NCBI RefSeq assembly: GCF_001874645.1
Contig: NZ_CP017886.1
Location: 1,984,001 to 2,048,000, forward strand
Length of the DNA: 64,000 nt
Direction of reading: 5' to 3'
DNA from: Pseudomonas frederiksbergensis
Lineage (GTDB): Bacteria > Pseudomonadota > Gammaproteobacteria > Pseudomonadales > Pseudomonadaceae
In this document: positions 7,230-27,788 of the stretch, one piece after another
How the letters are laid out: each line of letters begins with the position of its first letter
How positions within the stretch are numbered: the stretch's first letter is position 1
Notes under the pieces: generated by a model
Databases searched by the model: none
Seen by the model: the letters and a program-made list of their open reading frames with translations, nothing else
Told to the model about the DNA's origin: nothing
Program-made: the position numbers and the translations under genes

Positions 7230-7997
7230 TCACATCCCCTTGCGCCGCTCCGCACGAGCCATGCGCTGCATTTCCTGACGCACCTCTTCGAGCACCTCCT
7301 GCACATACAAAATGTGCCGGCTGGAGATTTCTCGCGCCTGCTCTGCGTGCCCTTCGATAATCGCCTGATACAAATCCCGGTGCTGACTGATCAGCATGTC
7401 GCGGGTTTCGGTGCGCTGTTTGTACATGCCACCGATGTTGGTCACCACGTTGCGTTTGAGCAGATCGAACAACCCGCGAATGGTGTGCAGCAACACCGCG
7501 TTGTGGCTCGCCTCGGCAATGGCCAGGTGAAACTTCGCGTCTGCCGCGCCCTCTTCCGCCCGGCTCACTTGATCATGGCGCGAATAGCAGTCTTGCAACT
7601 CTTCGAATGCCGCAGTCAGTCGCTCGCGGTCAACATCCGTCGCGCGCAACGCGGCGTAATAGGCACATGAAGCTTCCAGCGTATGGCGAAACTCCAGTAG
7701 ATCACGCTGGGCTTCGGGATTGCTTTCCAGCAGGTGCAACAATGGATCGCTGAAGGTTGAACCGAGCGATTCAACCACATAGTTACCGCCGCCCTGGCGA
7801 CTGACCAATAGCCCTTTGGCCGCCAGCTTCTGGATCGCTTCTCGCAATGAAGGGCGCGACACTCCGAACTGCTCAGCCAAGGCACGCTCTGCCGGCAATC
7901 GCTCACCAGACTTCAGCGTGCCCTCAAGAATCATCCCCTCGAGCTGCTCGACAATATCGTCAGACAAACGGCGCTGACGAATCTGATCAAACCCCAT
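7230..7997 (-). CDS. lldR: Lactate-responsive GntR/FadR-type regulator LldR
   Basis: A 255-residue FadR-subfamily regulator. The N-terminal winged helix (about residues 10-75) contains ERLPAERALAEQFGVSRPSLREAIQ. The C-terminal FCD ligand domain (about 85-235) has the metal/ligand histidines in KFHLAIAEASHN and SQHRDLY. It is divergent from lldP, and a perfect 17-bp palindrome with a TGGT-N3-ACCA core lies between the two genes, so it most likely represses the lactate operon until lactate binds. Full length. Confidence 0.92.
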   Translation of the reverse strand: MGFDQIRQRRLSDDIVEQLEGMILEGTLKSGERLPAERALAEQFGVSRPSLREAIQKLAAKGLLVSRQGGGNYVVESLGSTFSDPLLHLLESNPEAQRDLLEFRHTLEASCAYYAALRATDVDRERLTAAFEELQDCYSRHDQVSRAEEGAADAKFHLAIAEASHNAVLLHTIRGLFDLLKRNVVTNIGGMYKQRTETRDMLISQHRDLYQAIIEGHAEQAREISSRHILYVQEVLEEVRQEMQRMARAERRKGM

Positions 7998-8258: not shown

Positions 8259-9947
8259 ATGCAAACCTGGCAACAGCTTTACAGCCCGCTCGGCAGTCTC
8301 GGCTTGTCCGCGCTCGCGGCCGTTATCCCCATCGTATTTTTCTTCCTGGCTCTGGCCGTGTTCCGCCTCAAAGGACACGTCGCCGGGAGCATCACGCTGG
8401 CGTTGTCGATTCTGGTGGCGATCGTTGCCTTCCAGATGCCTGTCGACATGGCCTTCGCCGCGGCTGGCTATGGATTTGCCTACGGACTGTGGCCAATTGC
8501 CTGGATCATCGTGGCGGCGGTGTTCCTCTACAAATTGACAGTCAAGAGCGGCCAGTTCGAAGTGATCCGCAGCTCGGTGCTGTCGATTACCGACGACCAG
8601 CGCCTGCAAGTGCTACTGATCGGTTTCTGCTTCGGCGCGTTCCTGGAAGGTGCCGCCGGATTCGGCGCACCCGTGGCGATTACCGCCGCGCTGCTCGTAG
8701 GACTGGGTTTCAACCCTCTGTACGCCGCCGGCCTGTGCCTGATTGCCAACACTGCGCCCGTGGCTTTCGGCGCACTGGGAATTCCGATCATCGTCGCCGG
8801 CCAGGTAACGGGCATCGACGCGTTCAAGATCGGTGCCATGGCGGGCCGCCAACTGCCGCTGTTGTCGGTGTTCGTGCCGTTCTGGCTGGTGTTCATGATG
8901 GACGGCCTGCGCGGCGTCAAGGAGACCTGGCCGGCAGCATTGGTGGCGGGGTTGAGCTTTGCCGTCACCCAGTTCTTCACCTCGAACTTCATCGGCCCCG
9001 AACTACCGGACATCACCTCGGCACTGGTCAGCCTGATCTGCCTGACCCTGTTCCTCAAGGTCTGGCAGCCCAAGCGCTCGTTCGCCGAAGCGACCGCCAG
9101 CGTCGGTGCCGCAAGCGTGAGAAGCGTCGGAGGCTTCGGTCAACCGCGTACGACCCAACCTTCACCGTACAGCTTCGGCGAGATCTTCAAGGCCTGGTCG
9201 CCGTTCCTGATCCTCACCGCGCTGGTCACCATTTGGACCCTCAAGCCTTTCAAGGCAATGTTCGCCGCCGGCGGTTCGATGTACAGCTGGGTGTTCAACT
9301 TCGCCATCCCGCACCTTGATCAACTGGTGATCAAGACCGCCCCGATCGTAGCCGCCCCGACCGCCATTCCCGCGGTATTCAAACTCGACCCGATTTCGGC
9401 GACCGGCACGGCGATTTTCTTCTCCGCACTGATCTCGATGCTGATCCTGAAGATCAATTTCAAAATTGGTATTACCACCTTAAAAGAAACCTTCTTTGAG
9501 CTGCGCTGGCCTATTCTGTCGATCGGCATGGTGCTGGCCTTCGCCTTCGTCACCAACTATTCAGGTATGTCGTCGACCATGGCGCTGGTGCTGGCAGCCA
9601 CCGGCGCGGCCTTCCCGTTCTTCTCGCCATTCCTCGGTTGGCTGGGTGTGTTTCTGACCGGTTCGGACACCTCGTCCAACGCCCTGTTCAGCTCGCTGCA
9701 AGCGACCACTGCACACCAGATCGGCGTTAACGACGTGCTGTTGGTGGCGGCGAACACCAGCGGTGGCGTGACCGGCAAGATGATCTCGCCACAATCGATC
9801 GCCGTGGCCTGCGCCGCGACCGGCCTGGTGGGCAAGGAATCCGATCTGTTCCGCTTCACCCTCAAGCACAGCCTATTCTTTGCCACTATTGTTGGCCTGA
9901 TTACGCTGGCCCAGGCCTACTGGTTTACCGGCATGCTGGTGCATTAA
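8259..9947 (+). CDS. lldP: L-lactate permease LldP
   Basis: A 562-residue LctP-family lactate/proton symporter with about 12-14 membrane segments. Family landmarks include [21 protein letters not shown] (near 125-145) and [14 protein letters not shown] near 470. First gene of the operon with lutABC and dld, reached through a 150-bp gap, while the later genes overlap. A weak AGGGG ribosome site precedes the ATG. Carries an operator-like 14-mer inside its coding sequence. Confidence 0.96.
9464..9477. promoter_or_regulatory. Second LldR-operator-like sequence inside lldP
   Basis: AATTGGTATTACCA, identical to 14 consecutive bases of the operator at 8190-8206, lies about 1.27 kb downstream inside lldP. 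It encodes KIGIT, so codon constraint could explain it; a role as an auxiliary operator is speculative. Confidence 0.3.
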
Positions 9948-16384: not shown

Positions 16385-16778
16385 GGGGCCGTTTAGGATT
16401 CGACGCCGGTTGCGAAACTTTAGGTGCATGCCGAGTTGGTAACAGAACTCGTAAATCCACTGTTGCAACTTCCTATAGTTGCCAATGACGAAACCTACGG
16501 GGAATACGCTCTCGCTGCGTAAGCAGCCTTAGCCCTTCCCTCCTGGTACCTTCGGGTCCAGCAATCATCAGGGGATGTCTGTAAACCCAAAGTGATTGTC
16601 ATATAGAACAGAATCGCCGTGCAGTACGTTGTGGACGAAGCGGCTAAAACTTACACAACTCGCCCAAAGCACCCTGCCCGTCGGGTCGCTGAGGGTTAAC
16701 TTAATAGACACGGCTACGCATGTAGTACCGACAGCGGAGTACTGGCGGACGGGGGTTCAAATCCCCCCGGCTCCACCA
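16385..16778 (+). ncRNA. ssrA: Transfer-messenger RNA (tmRNA)
   Basis: About 394 nt. The 5' GGGGCCG pairs with 3' CGGCTCC next to the encoded CCA (16776-16778), giving the tRNA-Ala-like acceptor arm. The 3' T-arm has GGTTCAAATCC. The internal reading frame encodes the tag ANDETYGEYALAA ending in TAA. Together with SmpB it rescues stalled ribosomes and tags the product for proteolysis. The 3' end serves as the attachment site of the following mobile island, which leaves the CCA end intact. Confidence 0.98.
16481..16522 (+). other. tmRNA tag-peptide frame (ANDETYGEYALAA, stop)
   Basis: The resume codon GCC at 16481 begins 13 codons that end with the C-terminal ALAA degron recognised by ClpXP, then TAA. 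Confidence 0.9.
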
Positions 16779-16780
16779 AA
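16754..16780. other. Left attachment core (attL) in the ssrA 3' end
   Basis: The T-arm and acceptor segment from GGTTCAAA to CCACCAAA is the usual crossover site of tmRNA-integrating elements. An integrase gene starts 165 bp downstream, and a diverged copy of the same segment closes the island at 26557-26582. Confidence 0.6.
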
Positions 16781-16820
16781 TACTAGTTTCCACATGTTCC
16801 CACATGACTCGGAAACACCC

Positions 16821-16850
16821 CAAGAAGCCCGCCCCGCGCGGGCTTTCTTG
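16821..16850 (+). terminator. Terminator after ssrA
   Basis: AGCCCGC - CCCGC - GCGGGCT with flanking AAGA/TTCTT forms a GC-rich hairpin followed by a T-rich stretch 43 nt after the tmRNA. It lies on the island side of the crossover, so it replaces the original ssrA terminator, which may be the one at 26591-26621. Confidence 0.7.
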
Positions 16851-16892
16851 TGTCTGGACATCCCCGAATGAACCCACACAGCATTGCACCCC

Positions 16893-16914
16893 GTGTATGC
16901 CTGCTTGTATGCTC
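16893..16914. repeat. Left pair of 12-bp-spaced GTGTATGCC repeats (candidate integrase arm sites)
   Basis: GTGTATGCC at 16893 and TTGTATGCT at 16905, exactly 12 bp apart; an inverted copy (GGCATACAC) follows at 16934-16942. The same motif pair with the same 12-bp period occurs near the other island end (26485, 26497). Arm-type integrase or excisionase sites are the natural reading, inferred only. Confidence 0.45.
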
Positions 16915-16944
16915 GCCTTAAATTTGAAACTGGGGCATACACGC

Positions 16945-18186
16945 ATGAAGCGTTCGGAGATTAAGCGCCGTCCGATGGCAGACACCACCCTGGCCAGCCT
17001 TGAGCCTGAAGCCAGCACCTACCGTGAACTGGATGGCGCCGGGCTCTATCTGCGAGTGAAGCCCACTGGCCAGAAATCCTGGGAGCTGCGTTACAAAAAA
17101 GCCGATGGCAAATGGTCCTGGCTAGGCTTGGGAGGCTACGGCAAGGGCAGCCACCAGTTGACCGGCGAACAGGCACGCCAGAAGGCGGCAGAGCTGCGCG
17201 ACAGCACAATGAAAGATGGCAGCATGCTCGCCACCCAGCGCGCCCAAAAGGCAGCGGAGCGCGAAGCCGCCAATAACACTTTCGAACATCTGGCACGCGA
17301 GTGGTACGCCAACAAGCGCAAAGGCTGGAGTGCGGGTACTGCAACCCGAACCATTGGCGCCCTGGAACTGCATGTGTTTCCGGTCTTCGGCAAGCGGCCC
17401 TATCAGGGTGTTCTGCCAATGGAATGGATGGAGTTCCTGCGCGGTATGGAACAATCCGGGATCGTCGAGCAGACCAGCCGAGTACGTGGCATGTGCAGGG
17501 AAATTTACGACCTGGCTCGCGTCACCGGCCGCGCCACTCACAATCCGCTGGAAGGATTGCACAAGTTCCTGCTGACCAAGCCAGCCGAGAACTATGCCCA
17601 CGTTTCAATCGACGAATTGCCGCCTCTATTGCGAGCTATCAGAGCCTACCCAAGCGCGGTAGACGTTCGTATCGGCTTACACCTGCTGTCTATGCTCGCC
17701 TGTCGACCGTCTGAGCTGCGAGAGGCCCGGTGGTCTGAGTTCGATTTAGATGGGGGCCTGTGGACTGTTCCCGCCGAACGAATGAAGCGCCGTCGTGAGC
17801 ATGTGGTTCCCTTGCCGCGCCAATCCGTCGAACTGCTGCACAATCTGCACAACCTCACCGGCGCTTACCTCCTGCTGTTCCCAGGTCGTAGCGACACCAC
17901 CAAGCCGCGCTCAAATACCGTTTTTCTGATGGCCCTGCGTCGACTGGGCTACGAAGGGCGGCAGACCGGCCACGGATTCCGTCATATCGCCAGCACGATC
18001 CTCAATGAACACGGTTTCGATGAAAACCACATTGAGGCCCAGCTATCGCACGTTAAAGACGGGATTGCAGGGGTGTACAACAAGGCCCAATACCTGGCCC
18101 AGCGCACGACCATGATGCAGTGGTATGCCGACCACCTAGACAAGCTGGCAAACGGCAATGTTGTAGAAATGAGCAGGCGAGCTTAA
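16945..18186 (+). CDS. int: Tyrosine site-specific integrase (P4-type)
   Basis: A 413-residue tyrosine recombinase. It has an N-terminal DUF4102-like arm-binding domain (residues 10-95, ELDGAGLYLRVKPTGQKSWELRYK), a SAM-like core-binding domain (about 115-205) and a catalytic domain. Catalytic residues are visible: Arg in LACRPSELREARW, HxxR in GHGFRHIAST, His in LSHVKDG and the Tyr in GVYNKAQY. The start at 16945 removes a non-family N-terminal stretch. Position next to the ssrA 3' end and domain type identify it as the enzyme that integrates the island there. Confidence 0.93.
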   Translation: MKRSEIKRRPMADTTLASLEPEASTYRELDGAGLYLRVKPTGQKSWELRYKKADGKWSWLGLGGYGKGSHQLTGEQARQKAAELRDSTMKDGSMLATQRAQKAAEREAANNTFEHLAREWYANKRKGWSAGTATRTIGALELHVFPVFGKRPYQGVLPMEWMEFLRGMEQSGIVEQTSRVRGMCREIYDLARVTGRATHNPLEGLHKFLLTKPAENYAHVSIDELPPLLRAIRAYPSAVDVRIGLHLLSMLACRPSELREARWSEFDLDGGLWTVPAERMKRRREHVVPLPRQSVELLHNLHNLTGAYLLLFPGRSDTTKPRSNTVFLMALRRLGYEGRQTGHGFRHIASTILNEHGFDENHIEAQLSHVKDGIAGVYNKAQYLAQRTTMMQWYADHLDKLANGNVVEMSRRA

Positions 18187-18225
18187 TTCAAACTCACATC
18201 CATCAACTCAGTTCTGGAGGCCCGA

Positions 18226-19104
18226 TTGCACACCAAGAATGTGAAGTACATAAGTGAGCAAGAGACCTGTAAGCGTCTCAGTAAGGATATTGGTAGGGAA
18301 ATTTCGAGGGAAGAAATAATCGAGCTTTCTGAGGCTGGTGTCATTCCGGCTTATATGGAATTTCGTCCAACTGATAGCCGAGCTTTTCCGGAAAAACGAT
18401 TCTACTTTGTCCATGCATTAGAGGAAGACGTTTGCATCGGAAACGGATTTGAAACCGAGTTAAAAGCCTTGCCGTTTCCTCTTCGGGAGGGAGGAATATT
18501 CAGAGCTGCTGAATGGGCGTTTCATGGTAATAGCAGGCTTCCAACGCTTCAGACAGTGGACTATAAGGTCTTTGCAAAACATATTGAAGGCCATCTTGAA
18601 CCGATAAGTGAGGATCATTTTGTACGAGTCTACGCGCCGCTTGAAGTCAAACCTTCCAGCGTCAAAGTGAAACGGTACTTTAGTAACAAGATGGTTGAGC
18701 CTACTATCCACGGCTACTGCAATGCATTTGCAGGTTTCGATATTGAGACAGTAGGAGAATGGCGGGGAATGAGTCCCTTCACGGACGACCCTGATTATCT
18801 GAATCCTGACAGAAGGCGCCCTAACAGGAAGAGTGCAAACGAGCCAAGCGAAAGCATGGGGATGGAGTTGATAATTATCTCTGCGTTAAAGCAAATAGTG
18901 GAAACGTTGAGTGCACAAAAAGGAAGTAAGAAGTATACACAGGGAGATATTGCCAGAATGATCGAGGATATCTATCCATCCTGCATTAGTGATACCACAA
19001 TCAATAATATTTTTTCCGCCGCGAACAAAAAGCGGCTTGAGGTGATCGCACGGGCAAAGCAGAAGCAAGCCGACGATGCCAAGCTGATGAAGGATGCATT
19101 TTAG
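18226..19104 (+). CDS. Unknown island protein, 292 aa, AT-rich
   Basis: Starts at TTG with a strong GGAGG site 5 nt upstream (18216-18220). No family recognised. The first 40 residues (EQETCKRLSKDIGREISREE) look like a short helical DNA-binding-type segment. The middle is a mixed alpha/beta region with FDIETVGEWRGMSPFTDDPD near 175-195. The C-terminal 90 residues are helical, with YTQGDIARMIEDIYPSC and DTTINNIFSAANKKR resembling a helix-turn-helix, and a Lys/Ala-rich end. Base composition is visibly AT-richer than all neighbours. In P4-like satellites the place beside the integrase often holds cargo such as phage defence; that is context, not evidence of function. Confidence 0.7.
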   Translation: MHTKNVKYISEQETCKRLSKDIGREISREEIIELSEAGVIPAYMEFRPTDSRAFPEKRFYFVHALEEDVCIGNGFETELKALPFPLREGGIFRAAEWAFHGNSRLPTLQTVDYKVFAKHIEGHLEPISEDHFVRVYAPLEVKPSSVKVKRYFSNKMVEPTIHGYCNAFAGFDIETVGEWRGMSPFTDDPDYLNPDRRRPNRKSANEPSESMGMELIIISALKQIVETLSAQKGSKKYTQGDIARMIEDIYPSCISDTTINNIFSAANKKRLEVIARAKQKQADDAKLMKDAF

Positions 19105-19179
19105 GAATTTTGCAATTGCAATGACTCTGCTTCGTCGTGTGCATAACGTGGCAAGCCTCAATCGTATGGAGGCAAGTGA

Positions 19180-19434
19180 ATGCACCCGAACACTCCCCAC
19201 TCAAGCAAAGGGCTGATCCGTCAGCCCGCCCTCTGCCTATGGCTGGACGTGACCCGTTCCGGTCTCGCCAAGCTCAGAGCAAAAGACTCCTCATTCCCAA
19301 AGCCCATCAAGGATGGCGACTCGCGACAAGCTGCCGCTTATTACGTCGTGGCCGAGGTGGAAGCCTGGCTGCAATCCAAGATTGCCGCCCGAGACAAAGC
19401 CCAAACTTGTGAGAATGAGGATGCGAAACAGTGA
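19180..19434 (+). CDS. AlpA-like small DNA-binding regulator/excisionase
   Basis: An 84-residue protein with the AlpA/MerR-like helix-turn-helix layout: CLWLDVTRSGLAKLRAKDSSFPKPIKDG, then AAAYYVVAEVEAWLQSKIAAR (residues about 20-72). AlpA-type proteins in satellites activate integrase transcription or act as excisionases. GGAGG ribosome site at 19168-19172, 7 nt before the ATG. It lies between the unknown AT-rich gene and the left 74-bp repeat. Confidence 0.65.
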   Translation: MHPNTPHSSKGLIRQPALCLWLDVTRSGLAKLRAKDSSFPKPIKDGDSRQAAAYYVVAEVEAWLQSKIAARDKAQTCENEDAKQ

Positions 19435-19455
19435 GCAGTCCGAACGTTATGTGCT

Positions 19456-19529
19456 CCAGTCGTGCCCTTTTTGTGCAGTCGTGCCCATGCCCAAGGGTGG
19501 GCACTACTGAGGGCACAAGGGCACGACTG
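19456..19529 (+). repeat. Left copy of a 74-bp inverted repeat with five GGGCAC hexamers
   Basis: Runs from CCAGTCGTGCCC to GGGCACGACTG. It matches the reverse complement of 25986-26059 at 70 of 74 positions by eye. Inside are GTGCCC at 19462 and 19481 and GGGCAC at 19499, 19511 and 19519, so the unit is itself palindromic. It lies just after the AlpA-like gene. Confidence 0.9.
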
Positions 19530-19577
19530 CCGAAATTTTCGCTTGCCAGTGACAGGTTTGACGGTTATGGTTTCGCC

Positions 19578-19664
19578 GTCGCTGCAAATTCAGCGACCGG
19601 GCTTGGTAACCCGATCAGCAAAAGGCGCAACAGCGCCCCCATTACGATTGCAGGCGCTTTTTTT
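19578..19664 (+). promoter_or_regulatory. Structured leader with terminator upstream of the C4-like RNA
   Basis: Three successive hairpins: GTCGCTG/CAGCGAC (19578-19597), CGGG-CTTGGTAA-CCCG (from about 19598), and AGCGCC/GGCGCT (19632-19658) followed by seven T residues, a good intrinsic terminator. The arrangement resembles the P4 early leader, where transcription stops unless repression by the small RNA is absent. Confidence 0.55.
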
Positions 19665-19667
19665 ACG

Positions 19668-19765
19668 TCCGCATTTCCGTTTTATGGCGGCTGTGCGTGG
19701 GAGACCCTCGGGTCTGCCGGGTTCCTTTTGCCCCGGTTTACCAACCCGCGTACAGCTGCCACCCA
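19668..19765 (+). ncRNA. C4/CI-type antisense RNA candidate
   Basis: A 12-bp closing stem (19690-19701 with 19745-19756, two G-U pairs) encloses two hairpins: AGACC-CTCG-GGTCT (19702-19715) and CCGGG/CCCGG (19717-19736). This two-hairpin fold, and the sequence around TTTATGGCGGC and GGGTCTGCCGG, resemble the C4 antisense RNA of P1/P7 and the CI immunity RNA of P4. The 3' flank AGCTGCCA is complementary to TGGCAGCT at 19784-19791, just before the ribosome site of the next gene, as expected for an RNA that blocks leader translation. Overlapping frames here would code for Ash-like peptides and are not annotated. Confidence 0.6.
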
Positions 19766-19791
19766 TTCGCTTGGTAACGAATGTGGCAGCT
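19754..19791 (+). promoter_or_regulatory. Hairpin competing with the C4-like closing stem
   Basis: AGCTGCCA (19754-19761) pairs with TGGCAGCT (19784-19791) and CATTCG with CGAATG, around the loop CTTGGTAA. The first 3 nt overlap the closing stem of the small RNA, so the two folds exclude each other. The loop CTTGGTAA and the following CAGCAAAAGG repeat those at 19602-19626. Confidence 0.5.
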
Positions 19792-19814
19792 CCTCAGCAA
19801 AAGGAGCGTCACCC

Positions 19815-19997
19815 ATGCTTACCCGTCTTTTCAGCCTCACTCCGTCCGAAGTCCAGAACAAGGTCGAGCGTCACCGTGCTCGCGCTGTCGCCCAGCTCAA
19901 GAGCCAATCCAGCCTCAAAGTTCGCCACCAGCGTTACAACGCCGAAATGGCCCGCGCCCGCTTCTTTGAAGCCATGTTGGCTGGAGGCGCACAATGA
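19815..19997 (+). CDS. Small basic island protein, 60 aa
   Basis: Begins at ATG 19815 with AAGGAG at 19801-19806, 8 nt upstream; ends overlapping the next start by ATGA. The protein is Arg/Ala rich and helical (NKVERHRARAVAQLKSQ, YNAEMARARFFEAMLAGG). No function recognised. As first gene after the C4-like leader it is the likely direct target of that RNA. Confidence 0.65.
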   Translation: MLTRLFSLTPSEVQNKVERHRARAVAQLKSQSSLKVRHQRYNAEMARARFFEAMLAGGAQ

Positions 19998-20284
19998 AAC
20001 ATCTAACTACTACCGAAGTTCGTTTTATCTCTCCTGCCCACGCACACAAAAAACAAGAATTGTTTAGGGTGAACCCTGACATTAATGTTCAAATCGCTTT
20101 GCATATCGCCTCGGATCTTCTTGCCAGTGTGATGGACAGCCTCGCTGATGCAGCTTCTGGGGGAATTCCACTTGAGGGCAATAACGCTTTTATGGTGACC
20201 CACACAGTTGAAAGCGCCCGAGCTGCGCTTAGTTCAGTGTTAGGGAAGTTTGAAAAAATTAACGACCTCAATCTAGGGGCGTAA
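19994..20284 (+). CDS. DUF3077-like protein
   Basis: A 96-residue helical protein. The core LFRVNPDINVQIALHIASDLLASVMDSL (split over residues 23-50) matches the DUF3077 pattern common in Pseudomonas, where a short F-x-V-N/P segment is followed by an Ala/Leu-rich helix pair. No biochemical role is known for the family. Coupled by ATGA overlap to the upstream small gene and 2 bp from the next start, so part of one operon. Confidence 0.55.
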   Translation: MKHLTTTEVRFISPAHAHKKQELFRVNPDINVQIALHIASDLLASVMDSLADAASGGIPLEGNNAFMVTHTVESARAALSSVLGKFEKINDLNLGA

Positions 20285-20286
20285 TC

Positions 20287-20697
20287 ATGAAAACTTCAAA
20301 TCAGCGCCAAGTTGCGCTGGCGGGATCGGCTTGCCTGGATAAAGTGCTTAGTTGTCTCGACAAAGTTAAATCGGCTGGCACTAACAAGTGGAAAGCATGC
20401 TGCCCGGCACATGACGACAAGTCTCCGAGTTTGGCAATTAGTGAAACATCAGACGGTACTGTGTTGCTTAAGTGCTGGAGCGGCTGTACGGCTCAGGACA
20501 TTGTTTCGGCTGTCGGGTTGGAGTTGCGCGATCTATTCCCAGGTGTAAAGCGCGAACGCCGCGGCCCCAGTGCTGCTGCGATCAAGCATGAGCGCGCTGT
20601 ATATCTGATTGGAAAGTCGCTGCTCGAAGACGGAAAGTTGTTTGGCGACGATCTACAGCGCTTCAACCTCGCCAAGCAGCGCCTGGGGGTCAAATGA
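20287..20697 (+). CDS. Primase-type zinc-finger protein
   Basis: A 136-residue protein. Residues 37-75 form a CHC2-like zinc ribbon: W-KACCPAHDDKSPSLAI then LLKCWSGCTAQDIVSAVGL, as in the N-terminus of P4 alpha/phage primases. The rest is a helical tail without a TOPRIM or polymerase domain, so it is a stand-alone finger that presumably works with the helicase encoded next door, which it overlaps by 4 nt (ATGA). Confidence 0.75.
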   Translation: MKTSNQRQVALAGSACLDKVLSCLDKVKSAGTNKWKACCPAHDDKSPSLAISETSDGTVLLKCWSGCTAQDIVSAVGLELRDLFPGVKRERRGPSAAAIKHERAVYLIGKSLLEDGKLFGDDLQRFNLAKQRLGVK

Positions 20698-21869
20698 ACG
20701 CTCAAGATCGCTTTGCGGACCAGTGGGCGAAAAGCGATAGCCCCGCCGTATGGAAGGTGAACGCCGTGAGTGCCGCGAGCATCAAGCCGGTGGCCATTCG
20801 TTGGCTGTGGCCTGGCTGGCTAGCCAAAGGAAAGTTGCACATTTTGGCTGGCGCTGGCGGCACGGGGAAAACCACGCTGCTGATTAGCCTGATCGCAACC
20901 ATCACTACCGGTGGGCGTTGGCCGGACGGCACCCGTTGCAGTGAGCCAGGTAACGCCCTGATATGGTCGAGCGAAGATGACCCAGCCGACACGTTAGTAC
21001 CTCGATTGGCTGCTGCTGGGGCCGACCTAAACCGGGTTCACATCATCCAGGGCCGTATTAATGCCCAGGGAGAGGCTGACCCGTTCGACCCGGCCAACGA
21101 CATTGCTTTGCTGAGGGCCACTGCAAACGAAATTGGCGGTGTGTCGCTACTGATGCTCGACCCCATCGTCAGCGCGGTGAAGGGTGATATGCACAAAGCC
21201 AATGACGTGCGTCGAGCCCTGCAAGGCGTGGTGGACTTTGCCGAACAAAATCTTTGTGCGGTGGTGGGAATCTCCCACTTTGCCAAGGGCGGTGCGGGAT
21301 CTTCACCGGCAGATCGAGTGATCGGTTCACAGGCATTCTCAGCGCTGGCCAGGACGGTGCTCGTGGCAGCCAAACAGGAAGGCACCGACATGCGAGTGCT
21401 GGCCCGGGCCAAGTCCAACATCGGCACCGATGAGGGTGGTGTCTCTTACACCATCGAGCCTTGCGACATCGGCGGCGGGATCGAGGCCACCCGTGTGGTG
21501 TGGGGGGATGTTATCGAAGGGAGTGCTCGCGACATCCTCGGCGACGCCGAAGCCTGCGACGAAGAACGCCTGGATGACAGCGACAATCCAGCGGAGGCCT
21601 TGCGAAGAATCCTCAGCGCTGGGCCACTGACGGGAAAAGAAGCGAAAAACCTGATGGTGGGCAACGGGTATACACAAAAGCAGATCAGGAATGCACGAGA
21701 AAATCTATCGGTCACTACTGCCAGGGCTGGGTTTGGTGCAGACACCGTGGTCACCTGGTCACTTCCTCAAGCGACGGGTGATTACGCGGCCTTTCCTCAC
21801 AGGGAAAAAAGGCCAGCAATGGAAGCCCCCGTGGAAGCCGAGCTGAGTGCGGATGAGGTGGCGATATGA
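20694..21869 (+). CDS. RepA-like hexameric replicative helicase (AAA_25)
   Basis: A 391-residue RecA-fold ATPase of the RSF1010 RepA type. Walker A GAGGTGKTTLL lies near residues 54-64, Walker B SLLMLDPIVSAV near 152-163, and the QAFSALARTVL/ARAKSNIG region follows. The C-terminal 110 residues include a helix-turn-helix-like KEAKNLMVGNGYTQKQIRNARENL. Such proteins unwind the origin of satellites and plasmids. Overlaps the zinc-finger gene upstream and the next gene downstream by ATGA, so replication genes are co-translated. Confidence 0.85.
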   Translation: MNAQDRFADQWAKSDSPAVWKVNAVSAASIKPVAIRWLWPGWLAKGKLHILAGAGGTGKTTLLISLIATITTGGRWPDGTRCSEPGNALIWSSEDDPADTLVPRLAAAGADLNRVHIIQGRINAQGEADPFDPANDIALLRATANEIGGVSLLMLDPIVSAVKGDMHKANDVRRALQGVVDFAEQNLCAVVGISHFAKGGAGSSPADRVIGSQAFSALARTVLVAAKQEGTDMRVLARAKSNIGTDEGGVSYTIEPCDIGGGIEATRVVWGDVIEGSARDILGDAEACDEERLDDSDNPAEALRRILSAGPLTGKEAKNLMVGNGYTQKQIRNARENLSVTTARAGFGADTVVTWSLPQATGDYAAFPHREKRPAMEAPVEAELSADEVAI

Positions 21870-22162
21870 GCACCGCCATCGACTATTTAGCGCAGCACGG
21901 CCTGTCAGCACGCCAGAAGGGAAATCGGGTGGTGGTATCGCCCAGGTCGCGGGTCACGGATGACCTGCAAAAATATATCCGCGCTCATCGTCTTGAGTTG
22001 CTGGCCGAACTGGCAGCGAATGATGGGATTGAGCGCCGCTGCCACTGGAGAGTAGTTCGCGGTGAAAGACCTATATGCACGATGGTGGGTGTTCCCGTTA
22101 CGCGTAACGAAGCGTTGGCTGAGGTTCGTTGGCGCTGGCCTGATGCGGAGGTGGCGCCGTGA
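21866..22162 (+). CDS. Unknown small protein, TubC-N-like start
   Basis: A 98-residue protein. The first 55 residues (YLAQHGLSARQKGNRVVVSP ... LQKYIRAHRLELLAEL) resemble the small TubC-N-like fold found at the C-terminal side of many phage primase/helicase genes. The remaining part is Arg/Trp rich (RVTRNEALAEVRWRWPDAEV). Probably an accessory of the helicase. Overlaps both neighbours by 4 nt. Confidence 0.55.
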   Translation: MSTAIDYLAQHGLSARQKGNRVVVSPRSRVTDDLQKYIRAHRLELLAELAANDGIERRCHWRVVRGERPICTMVGVPVTRNEALAEVRWRWPDAEVAP

Positions 22163-22386
22163 GTATTGAGGAAGAAATCTACACCCGTTTGCAGCAGATG
22201 GATGTGGTTCCCCTGCTCGGCGGCCTAGTGCCGGAGAACGCCACCGCCAAGCTGTTGGGATACACACCTTCATACTTCCGCCAAATGGCGTCGGCCGGTC
22301 AATCACCGCTTTCGTATGTCCGACGAGGTAATCGAAGGTTTTATAAAATCGCAGATATCAGCAAATTCGTTACGGAAACCGCATAA
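22159..22386 (+). CDS. Small helix-turn-helix-like protein
   Basis: A 75-residue protein starting at GTG inside the upstream stop (GTGA). ATAKLLGYTPSYFRQMASAG followed by PLSYVRRGNRRFYKIADISKF matches the excisionase/MerR-like layout of a short HTH plus wing. Candidate excisionase or regulator. Last gene of the overlapping replication operon. Confidence 0.5.
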   Translation: MSIEEEIYTRLQQMDVVPLLGGLVPENATAKLLGYTPSYFRQMASAGQSPLSYVRRGNRRFYKIADISKFVTETA

Positions 22387-22420
22387 AAACGAAGATTTAC
22401 CGCGTTGAGTGACCATGGCC

Positions 22421-22491
22421 GTTTCTCCAATGTGTGCGTTCTCACATTGCTGACATTTATCAGCAGTTCAGAAAGCTCACGGAGAAACCCT
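22421..22491 (+). promoter_or_regulatory. Multi-stem RNA element that can sequester the ribosome site of the capsid operon
   Basis: GTTTCTCC (22421-22428) is the exact complement of GGAGAAAC (22481-22488), which contains the Shine-Dalgarno sequence of the next gene (ATG 22492). Between them are two further stems, AATGTG/CACATT (22429-22448, 8-nt loop) and GCTGA/TCAGC (22449-22464, 6-nt loop), stacked directly on the outer stem. The geometry of a three-way junction suggests translational control. Inferred from complementarity only. Confidence 0.5.
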
Positions 22492-22719
22492 ATGACAGAA
22501 AAACGCATGACCATTCACCTGGACGAGGGCTGTATCCGCGACCTCGAACAACTCAAACGCCGCCTTGATGCCGAAGCCGGAGAGCATGCCCCAATGTTCT
22601 CCCTGCCTGCCCTGGCTCGCCACGCTATCCGCAAGTGGTGTGACCATGTCGCCGCCCCCATGCCCCGTGCCTGGGAACAACAGCCCGCCAGCGATGACGA
22701 CGCCAGCAACGAGGGCTAA
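22492..22719 (+). CDS. Ribbon-helix-helix-like small protein
   Basis: A 75-residue protein: MTEKRMTIHLDEGCIRDLEQ gives a beta strand and helix as in ribbon-helix-helix regulators, followed by LPALARHAIRKWCDHV and an acidic tail. Start set by GGAGA 11 nt upstream. It ends 2 bp before the protease-capsid gene, so the two share a message. Could autoregulate capsid expression. Confidence 0.6.
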   Translation: MTEKRMTIHLDEGCIRDLEQLKRRLDAEAGEHAPMFSLPALARHAIRKWCDHVAAPMPRAWEQQPASDDDASNEG

Positions 22720-22721
22720 GC

Positions 22722-24563
22722 ATGGACCTTCAAATCTACGACGTGATCGACGAAGTCACCGCTCAAAAGGTCAAGGCCATGGTGGTCGGCCAACTGCCGC
22801 TAACCGTCCATATCAATAGCCCTGGCGGCAGCGTAACCGACGCCCTGGCGATCTACAGCATCCTGAATAAGCACCAGGGCCATGTCACTGCCGTCGTCGA
22901 TGGTTTGTGTGCCAGTGCGGCCACAATCGTGGCTCTGGCCGCCGATGAAATCGTGATGGCCGAGCACAGCTTGATGATGGTTCACAACCCGTGGACCGTT
23001 ACATCTGGCGATGCCACCCAGATGCGCAAAACTGCCGACACCCTTGACATGGCCAGCCGCGAAATGGCCGCGCTTTATACCGCGCGAACGGGCCTGAGCG
23101 GAGAAAAGGTCGTGGCAATCATGAGTGCCGAAACCTGGTTCAACGCCTATGAAGCCGTCGACGCTGGTTTTGCCCATCGTGTAGATAACGCCGAGCGCAG
23201 CAAGCCACGTTTGGCAGCGACGGCCATGTCATTCCTGGCCACCGTTGTTCAGGCGCCAGAAGCCGCAACGCAATCTCTCCAGCGGCTAACCGACAGCCGC
23301 GAAGCCCACCGCCAAAAGCTCAACGCACTTATCGGGTCTTTTGCAGGCCACGAAAGCATTCAGCGTCTACAAGCGAGTAAAGAATTCATGACCTACACCA
23401 CCGCGCAAGTCCGCGAAAAACTGCTGGTTGCGTTGGGCGAAGGAACCACTCCAACCGGTGGCCTACGTACCGACACGTTCGTCCATGCCGGTAACGGCAA
23501 CATCGTGCGTGACGGTATGGTCGATGCGCTGAGCACTCGTCTCGGTATCGCTCAAGCCCAGGATGCCAACAACCCGTATCGAACCATGACCCTGGCTGAG
23601 ATGGCTCGCGCGTCTCTCACCGAGCGTGGCGTAGGTGTGGCCAGTTACGGCACGAAAATGCAGTTAGTAGGCGCGGCCTTTACCCACACCACCAGCGACT
23701 TCGGTAACGTACTAATGAGCGTGTCCGAGAAAGCCATGCTGCGCGGCTGGGAAGCCAGCGGCGAGACGTTCCAACGCTGGACCAAAAAAGGCTCACTGAG
23801 CAACTTCAACCCCGCGCGCAGAGTCGGCATGTCCGGCTTCCCAACGCTGCCTAAAGTCCTCGAAGGGGCTGAGTACAAATATGTTACCTGCAACGACCGG
23901 GGCGCACCGATCGCTCTCGCGACCTATGGCGGACTGTTCAGCATTACCCGTCAGGCGATCATCAACGATGATTTGAGCGCATTCAGCGCGCTTCCTGCTC
24001 ACCTGGGCCGTTCGGCGAGCCGCACCATTGGCGACCTGGTTTATTCGGTGTTGACCAGCAACGCGGCTTTCGTCGACGGCAAGCCACTGTTCAGCGCCGA
24101 GCACGGCAACATTGACGAAACCGCTGCCGCGATGTCCCCTGATAGCCTGGGCGAACTGCGCTGCAAGATGCGCCTGCAGAAAGATGACTTCGGTACAGCG
24201 CTGAATATCTCGCCCGCGTTTGTCATTGTCCCCGCCGGCCTTGAGTCAGCCGCCATGCAGGTGCTCAACAGCACATCGATTCCTGGCGCAAACATGAATA
24301 GCGGCATTGCCAATCCTGTCAGCAAAATGGGCCAGCTCATCGTCGAAAGCCGCTTGGATAGCGCACCTACACCTTATTGGTACGTGGCTGCCGAACAAGG
24401 CGCCGATACCATTGAAGTCGCCTACCTGGACGGCGTCGATACCCCTTATCTCGAAGAACAGCAAGGGTGGTCCGTGGACGGTATTAGCCTCAAGGTGCGT
24501 ATCGACGCGGGTGTGGCCCCACTGGACTATCGCGGTCTAGCACGCGCCAAGGCCAACGCCTAA
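22722..24563 (+). CDS. ClpP-like prohead protease/major capsid protein fusion
   Basis: A 613-residue two-domain phage head protein. Residues 1-165 are a ClpP-type serine protease: INSPGGSVTDALAIY (oxyanion loop), catalytic Ser65 in GLCASAAT, His88 in MMVHNPW and, by alignment to ClpP Asp171, Glu137 in SAETWF. About 166-225 form a charged helical delta/scaffold-like segment. From about 226 (FMTYTTAQVREKLLVALGE) an HK97-fold major capsid domain follows, with the typical FGNVLMSVSEKAMLRGWE and PLFSAEHGN motifs. Such fusions cleave themselves during head assembly. No portal or terminase gene accompanies it. Confidence 0.85.
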   Translation: MDLQIYDVIDEVTAQKVKAMVVGQLPLTVHINSPGGSVTDALAIYSILNKHQGHVTAVVDGLCASAATIVALAADEIVMAEHSLMMVHNPWTVTSGDATQMRKTADTLDMASREMAALYTARTGLSGEKVVAIMSAETWFNAYEAVDAGFAHRVDNAERSKPRLAATAMSFLATVVQAPEAATQSLQRLTDSREAHRQKLNALIGSFAGHESIQRLQASKEFMTYTTAQVREKLLVALGEGTTPTGGLRTDTFVHAGNGNIVRDGMVDALSTRLGIAQAQDANNPYRTMTLAEMARASLTERGVGVASYGTKMQLVGAAFTHTTSDFGNVLMSVSEKAMLRGWEASGETFQRWTKKGSLSNFNPARRVGMSGFPTLPKVLEGAEYKYVTCNDRGAPIALATYGGLFSITRQAIINDDLSAFSALPAHLGRSASRTIGDLVYSVLTSNAAFVDGKPLFSAEHGNIDETAAAMSPDSLGELRCKMRLQKDDFGTALNISPAFVIVPAGLESAAMQVLNSTSIPGANMNSGIANPVSKMGQLIVESRLDSAPTPYWYVAAEQGADTIEVAYLDGVDTPYLEEQQGWSVDGISLKVRIDAGVAPLDYRGLARAKANA

Positions 24564-24595
24564 CCTGCGGCCATCAGTAAAGGAAGCTAGACACC

Positions 24596-25969
24596 TTGAC
24601 CATTTCAGAGCCGAAAACTCTGACGGTGGTGATCAGTGACATCGAGATTCGCCGCCATGCTGGCGGCGAAACTCGTCAACTGCGCGACATCCGTCACCCC
24701 GAACTCAGATTCCGCTACTCCACCTCCGACCGCAACAAGGGCGCCTGGCATGTCGTAGTGCGCGGCAAGTGGGGCAAAGCCGGTAATTATCCCAGCATCA
24801 ATGCCAAACTGATGATTAGCACTCTGCCGACGATCCTGGCACGACGTGCGGTCGACCCCAAGGCAGCCTCCACCACCACCGCTTGGCACACCGTAGGCGA
24901 AGTGCTGAACTGGTACGCCGATCGTATGGGCCGGGACCGGGGGTTGTCGGACAAACGCAAAGCCAGTGCGCAATCAGCGTTGCGTTGCCACCTGACTCCA
25001 CGTCTTCAAGATGTAACGTTAGCAAGCCTTGACCGTGCCAGCCTCGACCGTCTGCTGATGTGGCCCATGCAAGAGCGTTACGCGTTGTCATTCGTGCGTT
25101 CGGTGTATGGCGTGCTGGCGGTCGCCTTCCGCCAAGCCATGCGCCTTGGTCTGATCACCGTCAATCCCATGGCCGACCTCAAGTACACCGACTTCGTACA
25201 GACCCGAATCAAGCCCAAGCCCGCCCGGTTACGCGGTGACGACCTACCAACGCTACTGCACGACCTGACCGAACGGATCGAGCATGCGCCGTTGGAATCG
25301 ATGCTCGCGCTGATGATGCTCTGTCATGGCACCCGACTGGGCGAAACGCGGCTGGCTCGCTGGAAGAACCTCAACCTCACCACCCGCCAGTGGTTTATCC
25401 CCGCCCCGGACACCAAGACCAAAGCCGAGCACACGCTGCCACTGACCGAGCAAACCTGCGCCCTGATCGAGCGCTACCGGTCTATGCAGCAAGCAGCAGG
25501 GTATCAAGGGCCACTCCTGTTCCCTGGACGCTCTGGTACGGCTATCAGTGCGACAAACGCCAGCACTCTGTTTGCCGGCTTGGCCAAGGGGGCATGGTCG
25601 AGCCATGACCTGCGCAAAGTGGCTCGTACTGCCTGGGCTGATCTGGGCGTGGATTACATGGTGGGCGAAATGCTGCTGAACCACGCCATGAAAGACCTGG
25701 ACGCGACTTACATCCACACCACCGCCGAGGGCATGAAACGCAAGGCCTTGGAGACGTGGCACCAGCACCTTGATCGCCACGGCTTCGATGCCTTGCACGG
25801 TGGGACATATCCGGGACAAGCGGCAGACCCATCACCTGCGCAGACCACGAACAACGGGGCCTGTAGCGATTCCCCGCATCCATCCCAAGGGAGGATTCAG
25901 AACGATAGCGCCCGGACGGGTCAGCCCCCAGCGCTTTGGGGACAGTTCACCCAATGGACGGCCGATTGA
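24596..25969 (+). CDS. Second tyrosine recombinase
   Basis: A 457-residue phage-integrase-family protein, unlike the first in its N terminus (no DUF4102 module; begins MTISEPKTLTVVISDIEIRR). The start is TTG with AAAGGAAG 9 nt upstream. Catalytic residues are present: Arg in CHGTRLGETRLARW, Lys in DTKTKAEHTLPL, HxxR in SSHDLRKVAR, His in LLNHAMKDL and Tyr in DATYIHT. The last 55 residues are a Pro/Ser/Gln-rich low-complexity extension. It closes the island operon 32 bp behind the capsid gene. Both enzymes look intact. Confidence 0.88.
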   Translation: MTISEPKTLTVVISDIEIRRHAGGETRQLRDIRHPELRFRYSTSDRNKGAWHVVVRGKWGKAGNYPSINAKLMISTLPTILARRAVDPKAASTTTAWHTVGEVLNWYADRMGRDRGLSDKRKASAQSALRCHLTPRLQDVTLASLDRASLDRLLMWPMQERYALSFVRSVYGVLAVAFRQAMRLGLITVNPMADLKYTDFVQTRIKPKPARLRGDDLPTLLHDLTERIEHAPLESMLALMMLCHGTRLGETRLARWKNLNLTTRQWFIPAPDTKTKAEHTLPLTEQTCALIERYRSMQQAAGYQGPLLFPGRSGTAISATNASTLFAGLAKGAWSSHDLRKVARTAWADLGVDYMVGEMLLNHAMKDLDATYIHTTAEGMKRKALETWHQHLDRHGFDALHGGTYPGQAADPSPAQTTNNGACSDSPHPSQGRIQNDSARTGQPPALWGQFTQWTAD

Positions 25970-25985
25970 GCCAAACGCTTTTGCC

Positions 25986-26059
25986 CAGTCGTGCCCTTGT
26001 GCCCTCAGTTGTGCCCACCCTTGGACATGGGCACCACTGCATAAAAAGGGCACGACTGG
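25986..26059 (-). repeat. Right copy of the 74-bp inverted repeat
   Basis: Reverse complement of 19456-19529 with 4 differences by eye. Contains GTGCCC three times and GGGCAC twice. It starts 17 bp after the stop of the second recombinase. With the left copy it brackets 6.6 kb holding the C4-like leader, replication genes, capsid gene and second recombinase. Confidence 0.9.
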
Positions 26060-26100
26060 GGGAAAGTTGCACCCATGGATGACTGCGAAGAAGACTTGAG

Positions 26101-26190
26101 TGGCTGGCCGGGGTCGTCCCGCCAATTTTCAAAAGGTACTCCCGGACTCCACCCCCATAGGGGGTAATTCGGGCCCCGCTCGTTCGCTAT
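26101..26190 (+). other. GC-palindromic stretch, possible packaging (cos-like) site; rest of 25970-26825 without genes
   Basis: Contains ACCCCC-ATA-GGGGGT (26151-26165) followed 6 bp later by GGGCCC (26171-26176), within a block rich in G/C runs. Nested GC palindromes of this sort are seen at cohesive-end sites, and a satellite packaged by a helper would need one. This is a guess from context. In the remaining gene-free part (26191-26480 and 26631-26825) I see no convincing gene or RNA. Confidence 0.2.
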
Positions 26191-26484
26191 GTATGACCTT
26201 ATTTCGGTGGTTGGTTGTTGTTTAGTTAAAGCAACCAAAGCCCCAGCCAATAAGGGTTTCACCCCAGATTCGATGTAACGGAGACTGAATCTGCCCCGCT
26301 GACACCACAACCGACAGGTTGGTCTGAGTTGGTTTGCACGTTACGCAAGGCAGTTTTGAAATGTTGGACGCGGGTTCAGATGCTCACCGAGGATTCCAAC
26401 CGCCAGCGTTACGCATAACGATCAGATACAGGAATGTGAACACTAGTCATTTTTCTTGGCTGACAGGGCACAGCAACCAGCAGC

Positions 26485-26505
26485 GTGTATGCCACTGTGT
26501 ATGCC
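26485..26505. repeat. Right pair of GTGTATGCC repeats (candidate integrase arm sites)
   Basis: Two exact copies of GTGTATGCC at 26485-26493 and 26497-26505, 12 bp apart, 52 bp before the right core. Same motif, same spacing and same orientation as the pair at 16893-16914. Confidence 0.5.
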
Positions 26506-26556
26506 TTGAGTCACGCCACCACGCCAACCCCAATGTTTACTGGAACATTAAAGGCC

Positions 26557-26582
26557 GGTTCAAACGTCCCCGGCCCACCAAA
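26557..26582. other. Right attachment core (attR), diverged copy of the ssrA 3' end
   Basis: GGTTCAAA, CCCCGGC and CCACCAAA are shared in order with 16754-16780, with three substitutions and one missing base between them. It is directly followed by a strong terminator like that expected behind a native ssrA. The imperfect match lowers confidence that this is the partner created by the last integration. Confidence 0.5.
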
Positions 26583-26584
26583 CG

Positions 26585-26630
26585 AAGCATCAACAAAGCC
26601 CGCCTAGTGCGGGCTTTGTTGCATCTGGGG
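26585..26630 (+). repeat. 46-bp direct repeat, copy A, containing a terminator
   Basis: Matches 27721-27766 at 43 of 46 positions. The inner part, CAACAAAGCCCGC - CTAGT - GCGGGCTTTGTTG (26591-26621), is a strong intrinsic terminator and may be the original ssrA terminator displaced by the island. Confidence 0.85.
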
Positions 26631-26825
26631 TTTGAGCTTTCTAGCCTGTTATGCAGTGCCCCCCAACCCAGAGCCTGTCAAAAACGCTCAAACACAGCAC
26701 AAAGCCGGCAGACAGTCCGTCGCTAAAGTGCTTCGAACCTCCCTCGGCGAATGCCAAAATCCCCACAGGCCCATTAATAAACATTACCATTTGCGACGTA
26801 ATAGTCGAAAACGATGGGGAATCGA

Positions 26826-27680
26826 ATGCGCAGGTCGGCTGTAATTCTTTTGGCATCCATGCTGACAGCGTGTGGGACTGGGCTGCCCGTCGAGAAAACG
26901 AAAGCAGTGGAGAGCGTAGCGTCCGAGAATGGGCACACCCCACTGGAAATGGATGGTTATACCGCTAGCAAACTGGATGCCCTGCTCAAAGAACGCTCAG
27001 CGACCAACCCCGATGACATAGGGCAGATGAACAATCTGATTTCACGAGAGTTTTTGGGGCTGCCCTATTCCGCGAACAGGTTGCAGGGCTCTGCTACCAC
27101 GCCGGAAGAGTTGGTAGTCGACTTCAGGGGCCTGGACTGTTTCACCTATCTGGATTATGTCGAAGCGTTGAGAAAGTCCACCAATGAAGCCGACTTCGTG
27201 AAGAGCCTCATTCAGACCCGTTACGTGAACGGCAATCTCAATTTCCTGCATCGCCGGCACTTCTTCACAGACTGGTCGCAGGCGGAGCAAAAACTGGCCG
27301 ACGACGTCACCGCTCAAATCAGCCCTCATGCGGTAACCGTGGTGAAGCGCCTCAACCGAAAAGCAGATGGCAGCGCCTACTTGCCGGGCGTGCCCATGAT
27401 CGAGCGCAGTATTACCTATATCCCTAGCGCTTTTATTAACGACCACGTGATCAGCCGCTTGCAGACTGGCGATTACGTTGGCATTTACACCCAACTCGCC
27501 GGCCTGGACGTCACCCATACAGGGTTCTTTATCAACAAAGACGAAGGGCCAGTGCTGCGTAATGCCTCTTCGAAGAAAAAGAACAGAGAAGTCGTCGACT
27601 CTCCCTTCAAGGACTACATCGCGAAGACGCCAGGGATCGTGGTGTTACGGGCACGGCAATCTGTGCCTGAGAATCAATGA
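26826..27680 (+). CDS. DUF1460 lipoprotein, N-acetylmuramoyl-L-alanine amidase-like
   Basis: A 284-residue protein of the NlpC/P60-superfamily DUF1460 group. The signal peptide MRRSAVILLASMLTACG has a lipobox (LTAC) with lipidated Cys16; this start has GGGGA 5 nt upstream, whereas the ATG 12 nt earlier has none. The catalytic cysteine lies in RGLDCFTYLDYVEAL; the partner histidine is probably in DVTHTGFF near residue 235. Related enzymes cut the MurNAc-L-Ala bond of peptidoglycan. The gene sits between two 46-bp terminator-containing direct repeats, so it may be a separate inserted cassette. Confidence 0.8.
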   Translation: MRRSAVILLASMLTACGTGLPVEKTKAVESVASENGHTPLEMDGYTASKLDALLKERSATNPDDIGQMNNLISREFLGLPYSANRLQGSATTPEELVVDFRGLDCFTYLDYVEALRKSTNEADFVKSLIQTRYVNGNLNFLHRRHFFTDWSQAEQKLADDVTAQISPHAVTVVKRLNRKADGSAYLPGVPMIERSITYIPSAFINDHVISRLQTGDYVGIYTQLAGLDVTHTGFFINKDEGPVLRNASSKKKNREVVDSPFKDYIAKTPGIVVLRARQSVPENQ

Positions 27681-27720
27681 AATCTGGTTCGCCCCTCTTA
27701 TGCGAGCCCTCTGCATCCTC

Positions 27721-27766
27721 AAGCACCAACAAAGCCCGTCTTGTGCGGGCTTTGTTGCATCTGGGG
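27721..27766 (+). repeat. 46-bp direct repeat, copy B, terminator of the DUF1460 gene
   Basis: CAACAAAGCCCG (27727-27738) pairs with CGGGCTTTGTTG (27746-27757); the downstream GCATCTGGGG is also shared with copy A. It ends the DUF1460 transcript and, from the other side, the MHS transporter transcript. Confidence 0.85.
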
Positions 27767-27788
27767 GCTTTGTCTATCACTCACGAGC

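Follow-up and report, generated by a model that had tools for sequence, protein, structure and literature searches.

Satellites that carry a capsid gene and lack portal and terminase genes are known in staphylococci and in Escherichia coli, with opposite results on the role of the capsid gene, and a capsid homolog has been reported in one from Pasteurella. Capsid-forming phage-inducible chromosomal islands (cfPICIs) take only tails from their helper. SaPIbov5, a Staphylococcus aureus pathogenicity island (SaPI) of approximately 14 kb that is packaged through a cohesive-end site (cos), encodes the capsid homolog Ccm, which takes the pentamer positions and leads to T=4 shells; like the other cos SaPIs with Ccm it combines a helper cos with a capsid homolog and a small shell (PMC8569155; PMC5052747). 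Small heads and a major capsid homolog have also been described for PmCI172 (PMC6092414). In Pseudomonas the helper-satellite pair AH14a/AH14b is reported without satellite capsid genes, and P4 is described as lacking capsid, tail and lysis genes (PMC4936722). Here we analyse an island of Pseudomonas frederiksbergensis (assembly GCF_001874645.1, contig NZ_CP017886.1) that lies within a stretch of 64,000 nucleotides (contig positions 1,984,001 to 2,048,000; hereafter the window, whose numbering is used throughout) and whose sole recognised virion gene encodes a 613-aa ClpP-type protease/capsid fusion. The island is genuine and intact, it represents a kind of satellite that recurs, and it is not a decayed prophage. 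A preliminary description, made from the window alone, had presented its way of life as an undescribed intermediate, but cos islands with a capsid homolog and without portal or terminase genes have already been published (SaPIbov5 with Ccm, EcCICFT073 and PmCI172; PMC8569155, PMC5052747, PMC6092414). What is new here beside these precedents is the complete self-processing fusion, the dedicated capsid lineage and a named helper group; our literature search on satellite capsids, Pseudomonas and prohead protease fusions, with subscription papers mostly outside its scope, found no description of this island family.

The island measures 9,802 bp core to core. Its target is the tmRNA gene ssrA (16385..16778; ARAGORN, Rfam RF00023), at the 3' end of which lies the left attachment (att) core, attL (GGTTCAAATCCCCCCGGCTCCACCAAA, 16754..16780), and the right core, attR (GGTTCAAACGTCCCCGGCCCACCAAA, 26557..26582), closes the element, so that borders at 16754 and 26582 fit both cores (all genes, RNAs and sites given here are on the forward strand). 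With its integrase and defined att sites the island occupies a fixed chromosomal position, and a sister island, L150, occupies the same site in another genome. The two att copies of the window island are imperfect; a decayed attR was considered and rejected, because L150 carries the identical imperfect right core. No frame of the window island contains an internal stop. Scanning 11 of the 12 island proteins (all except a 60-aa protein) against at least one family library found no terminase, portal, tail or lysis gene. The window island and four related islands were also searched by tblastn. The queries were the proteins for terminase, portal, adaptor, decoration, tail and lysis that F10, mEp460, Riah and Solano encode, together with the head proteins of a cfPICI-like element resident in the same genome; only the capsid gene matched, besides integrase cross-hits. 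Searches of plasmids returned no match to the island DNA and only relatives below 60% identity to the capsid protein. The preliminary description had listed an integrase, a zinc finger, a RepA-like helicase, a C4-type RNA and the capsid fusion, all of which Pfam, PHROG, Rfam and NCBIfam recover, and its statement that terminase, portal, tail and lysis genes are missing agrees with the library scans and tblastn. Its picture of an intact satellite with a self-processing capsid and neither portal nor terminase is supported, and a link to a phage cos is now added; it overlooked that cos, a second recombinase gene and two 74-bp arrays.

The capsid gene (22722..24563) encodes a ClpP-type prohead protease, a scaffold and a major capsid domain in one protein (PHROG 133, 2.7e-200; Pfam PF00574 and PF25209), which scores 702 bits (cut-off 475) against NCBIfam NF045540, the family already described for fusions of a ClpP-like prohead protease with a major capsid protein. 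Of 137 aligned capsid rows, 136 retain Ser65 and His88, and the exception is a partial protein. The gene is under purifying selection, as the preliminary description had anticipated for a genuine element, with a ratio of nonsynonymous to synonymous substitution (dN/dS) of 0.093 against L150 and of 0.077 against L068, an island from IMG/VR. In a tree of 134 capsid rows (FastTree local support, midpoint root; partial rows P0009, P0056 and P0100 dropped; 13 prophage loci tried for the alignment, of which G256, G280, G214 and G016 yielded no frame that passed the filter) all five islands described below fall within a clade of 100 rows that has no confirmed phage member (support 0.91). Named sources of its rows include Pseudomonas monteilii, P. 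rossensis, Stutzerimonas degradans, Thiopseudomonas, Vreelandella and Halomonas. None of the 1,662 phage records with a capsid match reaches 60% identity, the best among the matches listed being 46.7%; island and phage proteins are 46% identical over 97%, and the nearest 40 phage fusions stand at 44-47%. Among the best 120 of 2,349 matches in a protein search, the first 97 had 51-96% identity (a few of them partial). A search of genome contigs gave 19 loci that matched mostly in the protease domain. An alignment search of IMG/VR confirmed 131 loci, only one of the best 80 exceeding 52% identity in its best segment, so that virus collections seem to hold few of these islands. A PDB sequence search returned only Clp proteases among the best 60 of 113 matches. 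The linker between protease and capsid is 103-110 aa long in the five islands compared with 128-152 in ten Pseudomonas phages and prophages and 137 in mEp460, and six residues precede the conserved Asp7 in the islands compared with at least 42 in the same ten (prophage starts being predicted) and 14 in mEp460; the capsid domain itself is of similar length (345-348 aa in islands, 344-352 in phages). Directly upstream of the capsid gene lies a gene for a 75-aa protein (22492..22719; 54% identity in L151, 49% in L087) with 52 homologs, 11 of which share their longest-contig size with a capsid cluster (matched by eye). Between the window island and L150, synonymous divergence (dS) is 0.05 in the first 205 codons of the capsid gene (22722-23336) and 0.41 in the remainder, which points to a recent exchange inside this gene.

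Five att-bounded islands share this plan, in which the capsid gene is the only recognised virion gene and is followed by a cos-like block, at four target sites including ssrA and with two different replication modules. They are of similar length (window island 9.80 kb, L150 9.78, L068 9.85, L151 9.36 and L087 10.45). The same gene order at ssrA, for which the preliminary description had proposed searching related genomes, was found in L150 (genome G689; first integrase 97%, RepA 91%, capsid 95%, second recombinase 89%), where no head, portal or terminase genes besides were found. L068 has a similar capsid (85%), RepA (83%) and second recombinase (72%), its integrase being only 42% identical, and lies at a target other than ssrA between 13-bp repeats 9,845 bp apart. 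In another genus, L151 is inserted at tRNA-Phe between identical 19-bp repeats 9,364 bp apart, and no recognised gene lies between its capsid gene (67%) and the right end, beyond which host transporter genes begin. L087, from IMG/VR, is bounded at tRNA-Met by 87-bp repeats that are 98% identical and separated by 10,446 bp, and it encodes a P4-alpha-like helicase in place of RepA, a Q-like antiterminator, the 75-aa protein and the capsid (52%). A locus with full head, portal and terminase genes, or stops in most copies, had been named as signs that would refute a real element; neither was seen in the five bounded islands. Close copies are rare in species-level genomes: at E <= 1e-155 they occur in 3 of 398 genomes in the family search (the source genome included) and in 1 of 390, the source genome itself, in the order search, and no other match above 54% identity was found among the 398 genomes searched for the genus. 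A short IMG/VR contig, L074, carries a P4-like helicase followed by a 607-aa capsid fusion (45%) that falls outside the clade of 100 rows and is possibly a second origin of the same plan; it is excluded from the five bounded islands since the contig ends early. Four further loci (L196, L197, L202 and L203) look cfPICI-like, judged by frame sizes only.

In the non-coding right end of the window island lies a cos block (26134..26224), recognised by matches to phage records, by a pattern and by alignment. Its parts are named by position after the description in PMC6092414: a cosQ-like AGGTACTCCC (26134-26143), a 12-nt cosN GGTAATTCGGGC (26163-26174) and a cosB-like part that extends to 26224, with TATGTATGACC and GGTTGGTTGTTGTTT 3' of cosN. 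As a query, window positions 26070-26540 matched 34 of 50,697 phage records, all of them Pseudomonas phages (best E 7e-12), and a 63-bp core scored 50-57 of 63 in 13 of 14 phage-type loci, as against 34 of 63 in the rest of the window and 31-33 in five shuffles, so the block is not a chance resemblance; the low score of MD8 (29) arises because its record starts inside the core. The matching records belong to the F10/MD8 group, and 18 of the best 20 are also among the 40 nearest capsid fusions listed. The match begins at base 1 of MD8, and in Solano, CF79a and Riah it reaches terS or stops one or two bases before it. GGTAATTCGAGC stands at both ends of the MD8 and F10 records, as expected of a cohesive end, and the island cosN is identical in 11 of 13 terS-side places of other Pseudomonas genomes. 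A scan with the cos pattern found at least 120 stretches in IMG/VR and 17 places in 15 of 398 Pseudomonas genomes, the reversed pattern being found at none in the same 398. Of the 137 loci with the pattern, 130 have terS by tblastn (not independent cases, as one phage recurs in near-identical form at many IMG/VR loci), four are truncated on the terS side and three have no terS. The window island, with its helper-type cos, is one of these three; the others are an island in genome G064 and a locus in G137 (contig C20). The G064 island (G064:C1:4132000-4151500, cos at 7500) lies beside tRNA-Leu and carries an integrase, an AlpA-like gene, a primase, an AAA protein and a 200-aa PHROG 7215 protein, with the same cos type and no capsid gene found. 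At the G137 locus (G137:C20:5000-24500, position 9730) the same cos type stands among chromosomal-looking genes (LysR, major facilitator superfamily), and no terS or integrase was found there. In phages such as L240, L243, L244 and L308, the same cos and related terS and terL accompany a distant portal (approximately 26%) and capsid (approximately 32%), so that packaging and shell modules have been exchanged between phages too.

Set against described systems, the window island shares the capsid fusion family and the cos with the phages F10, MD8 and Solano, in which terS, terL, adaptor and portal lie between cos and capsid, unlike in the island. EcCICFT073, with an AlpA-type control gene, cos packaging without terS and a capsid gene in the right part (PMC6092414), has counterparts in the putative AlpA-like gene of the island, its cos without terS and the place of its capsid gene, but EcCICFT073 has two cos sites without the phage cosB and uses Rpp to retarget the helper terS (PMC6092414; PMC6739421), and our inspection of its genome showed an unfused 351-aa capsid protein and a decoration protein, with no BLASTP similarity to the island capsid. 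cfPICIs were compared through PMC11389934 and through the resident element L060, a fuller cfPICI-like satellite in the same genome (G000:C1:2610000-2629000) that ends beside tRNA-Thr and carries an integrase, capsid, protease, portal, HNH, terminase subunits and head closure. L060 resembles the island in having its own capsid gene and in its zinc-ribbon (76%), 98-aa (67%) and 60-aa (74%) proteins, whereas portal, separate protease, HNH, both terminase subunits and connector did not appear in the island scans. A C4 RNA with its target and a putative AlpA-like gene recall P4-like satellites, as does the P4-alpha-like helicase of L087; unlike P4, which has an alpha primase-helicase and no capsid gene, the window island has a RepA-type helicase and a capsid gene (Psu, Delta and Sid were not searched for by name).

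Our data suggest, with belief and doubt about evenly balanced, that the island is a cos satellite that makes its own shell but relies on a helper for portal, terminase and tail. At rest it would sit in ssrA, held down by the C4-type antisense RNA, until phage growth in the cell supplies a terminase of the F10/MD8 type. The island would then be excised by its integrase with the AlpA-like protein and be replicated by the RepA-like helicase, probably from the arrays, and the helper terminase may recognise the island cos, cutting and packaging there. As the island has no portal, the shell would have to form on that of the helper; with a protease and scaffold of its own, the island could supply the entire shell, and the fusion may form most or even the whole of a small shell built around the helper portal, with helper tails completing the particle. 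This combination of an island shell with the portal and motor of a helper, which the preliminary description had proposed, is what we infer from the gene content. The lengths of the five islands (9.36-10.45 kb, as against 39.2 kb for F10) fit a small head, multimers in full-size heads being another possibility. A stronger form, to which we give slightly less than even credence, is that a satellite-living capsid lineage, spread over several Pseudomonadales genera and two replication modules, makes complete self-maturing shells wholly of island protein that take a foreign portal and, through a copied cos, a foreign terminase. If true, two replicons could divide shell, portal and motor between them.

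Several points weigh against this account. It is drawn from genes and sequence, and two published systems behaved differently: according to PMC6092414 the capsid gene of EcCICFT073 had no effect on transfer, the packaged DNA being phage-sized, and according to PMC8569155 the capsid homolog of SaPIbov5 fills pentamers only and forms no shells alone. The cos of L151 and L087 was recognised by alignment only (L151 against phage records, E 0.01-0.1). A scan of the host genome at up to two mismatches showed no second such cos, which leaves the island with no known resident helper, and the G064 island, with its cos and no capsid gene, indicates that cos and capsid are separable. Linkers of 108-120 aa also occur, with an N-terminus of 19-21 residues, in full-length rows among P0098-P0120, so a short linker is no proof of a small shell, and the structure model of the capsid (AlphaFold predicted local distance difference test 67.9, predicted template modelling score 0.41) is too weak to use.

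The island capsid might instead co-assemble with that of the helper at some positions only, such as the pentamers, and so shrink the shell and block the helper, which is the solved mechanism of SaPIbov5 Ccm (PMC8569155; PMC5052747). An identity of 46% over 97% makes mixed shells of island and phage proteins plausible, and the island does share with Ccm the basic trait of a satellite-encoded capsid homolog. Ccm is reported to be approximately 19% identical to its phage protein and to be without the long N-arm, and SaPIbov5 has no known protease; the island, in Pseudomonas, keeps protease, scaffold and a capsid domain of full length, although its scaffold segment is shorter than in the ten Pseudomonas phages and prophages. 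We consider this redirection unlikely, though second in rank among the readings and deserving of serious weight. That the island simply rides in normal helper heads through its cos, its capsid protein being accessory, would follow the precedent of EcCICFT073, a cos PICI that tolerated loss of its capsid gene (PMC6092414), and would suit the capsid-less G064 island. What makes this improbable is that the whole fusion is under strong purifying selection and turns up with two replication modules, and that the islands span a narrow range of lengths, as expected if a small head bounds them.

The protein could also be an anti-phage factor that poisons helper assembly, with island transfer independent of it, given that Ccm alone blocks helper growth 10^3-10^4-fold (PMC5052747); but a cos block is conserved behind the capsid gene in all five islands, which links the capsid to packaging, and we think this explanation decidedly improbable. 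Next to no probability attaches to a prophage or cfPICI decayed by loss of portal and terminase, a possibility that the preliminary description had kept open. It might draw on the full cfPICI-like element with related replication genes in the same host and on the difference between attL and attR; against it stand five bounded copies of one plan, a window copy without stops, dN/dS below 0.1 and the same imperfect attR in L150, and the capsid of the resident cfPICI-like element belongs to another family (PHROG 617), with no tblastn hit to the islands.

In the island, the tyrosine integrase gene int1 (16945..18186; Pfam PF00589, 2.3e-21, and arm-binding domain PF13356) has an open frame from 16804, with a start at 16945 likely by eye, and its 97% relative in L150 occupies the same site. 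It is followed by a variable gene for a 292-aa protein of no family (18226..19104; a partial 31% match in L150) and by that for the small AlpA-like DNA-binding protein (19180..19434; 86% in L150, 61% in L066), a label given in the preliminary description that relatives at 35-86% and a weak PHROG hit (PHROG 4745, 'DNA binding protein', E 0.009) suggest. The C4 antisense RNA of P4/P1-type immunity (19680..19766; Rfam RF01695, 89.7 bits, cut-off 45) lies downstream of its target, c4-a1b1 (19565..19617; RF03163, 58 bits, cut-off 46.7). Then come genes for the 60-aa protein (19815..19997; 90% in L150, 77% in L068), a 96-aa DUF3077-like protein (19994..20284; PF11275, 8.6e-6), a DnaG-type zinc-ribbon protein resembling a primase fragment (20287..20697; PHROG 6088, 1.2e-15; PF01807, 3.3e-5, just under the cut-off), the RepA-like AAA_25 replication helicase (20694..21869; PF13481, 1.7e-36), the 98-aa protein of the replication cassette (21866..22162) and a second 75-aa protein (22159..22386), winged-helix-like by eye, which hhalign compared as a terS or Rpp mimic with a probability of 30%.

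P4 has a two-part origin (ori/crr). By resemblance to it, two iteron-like arrays of 74 bp may, as a guess, form a two-part origin in the island. Array A (19456..19529) holds four AGTNGTGCCC motifs, two direct then two inverted, and array B (25986..26059), 6.5 kb away, is an inverted copy of it at 95%; both were found by repeat search, the pair is also present in L150, and L068 has three motifs in each. No evidence was found for the pair as an invertible segment. Directly 3' of the capsid gene lies int2 (24596..25969; PF00589, 5.2e-19; 89% in L150, 72% in L068, 50% in Solano), a second tyrosine recombinase related to the one beside the replicative helicase of lambdoid phages. In Solano the int2-like gene comes after that for the replicative helicase and is present in addition to a distinct integrase gene, and in capsid-less relatives of the island int2 stands after the same replication genes, so int2 is probably not the island integrase. 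Such relatives (L199, L200 and L201) carry int1, the zinc ribbon, RepA, the 98-aa gene and int2, without a capsid hit. A tandem second island, with int2 as its integrase, was rejected, since int2 stands behind the capsid gene in three islands whose int1 is of two types, and Solano provides a precedent. Beyond attR (26583-27768), a gene for a 288-aa protein (26814-27680) lies between two near-identical copies of an ssrA-type terminator, perhaps a further small insertion.

A complete capsid with its own protease and a nearby helper-type cos, found with two replication modules, makes these islands a clean test of whether the portal and motor of a phage will serve the shell of another replicon, and the same system tests whether shell size depends on the scaffold segment. 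A helper group has now been named for a number of Pseudomonas islands.

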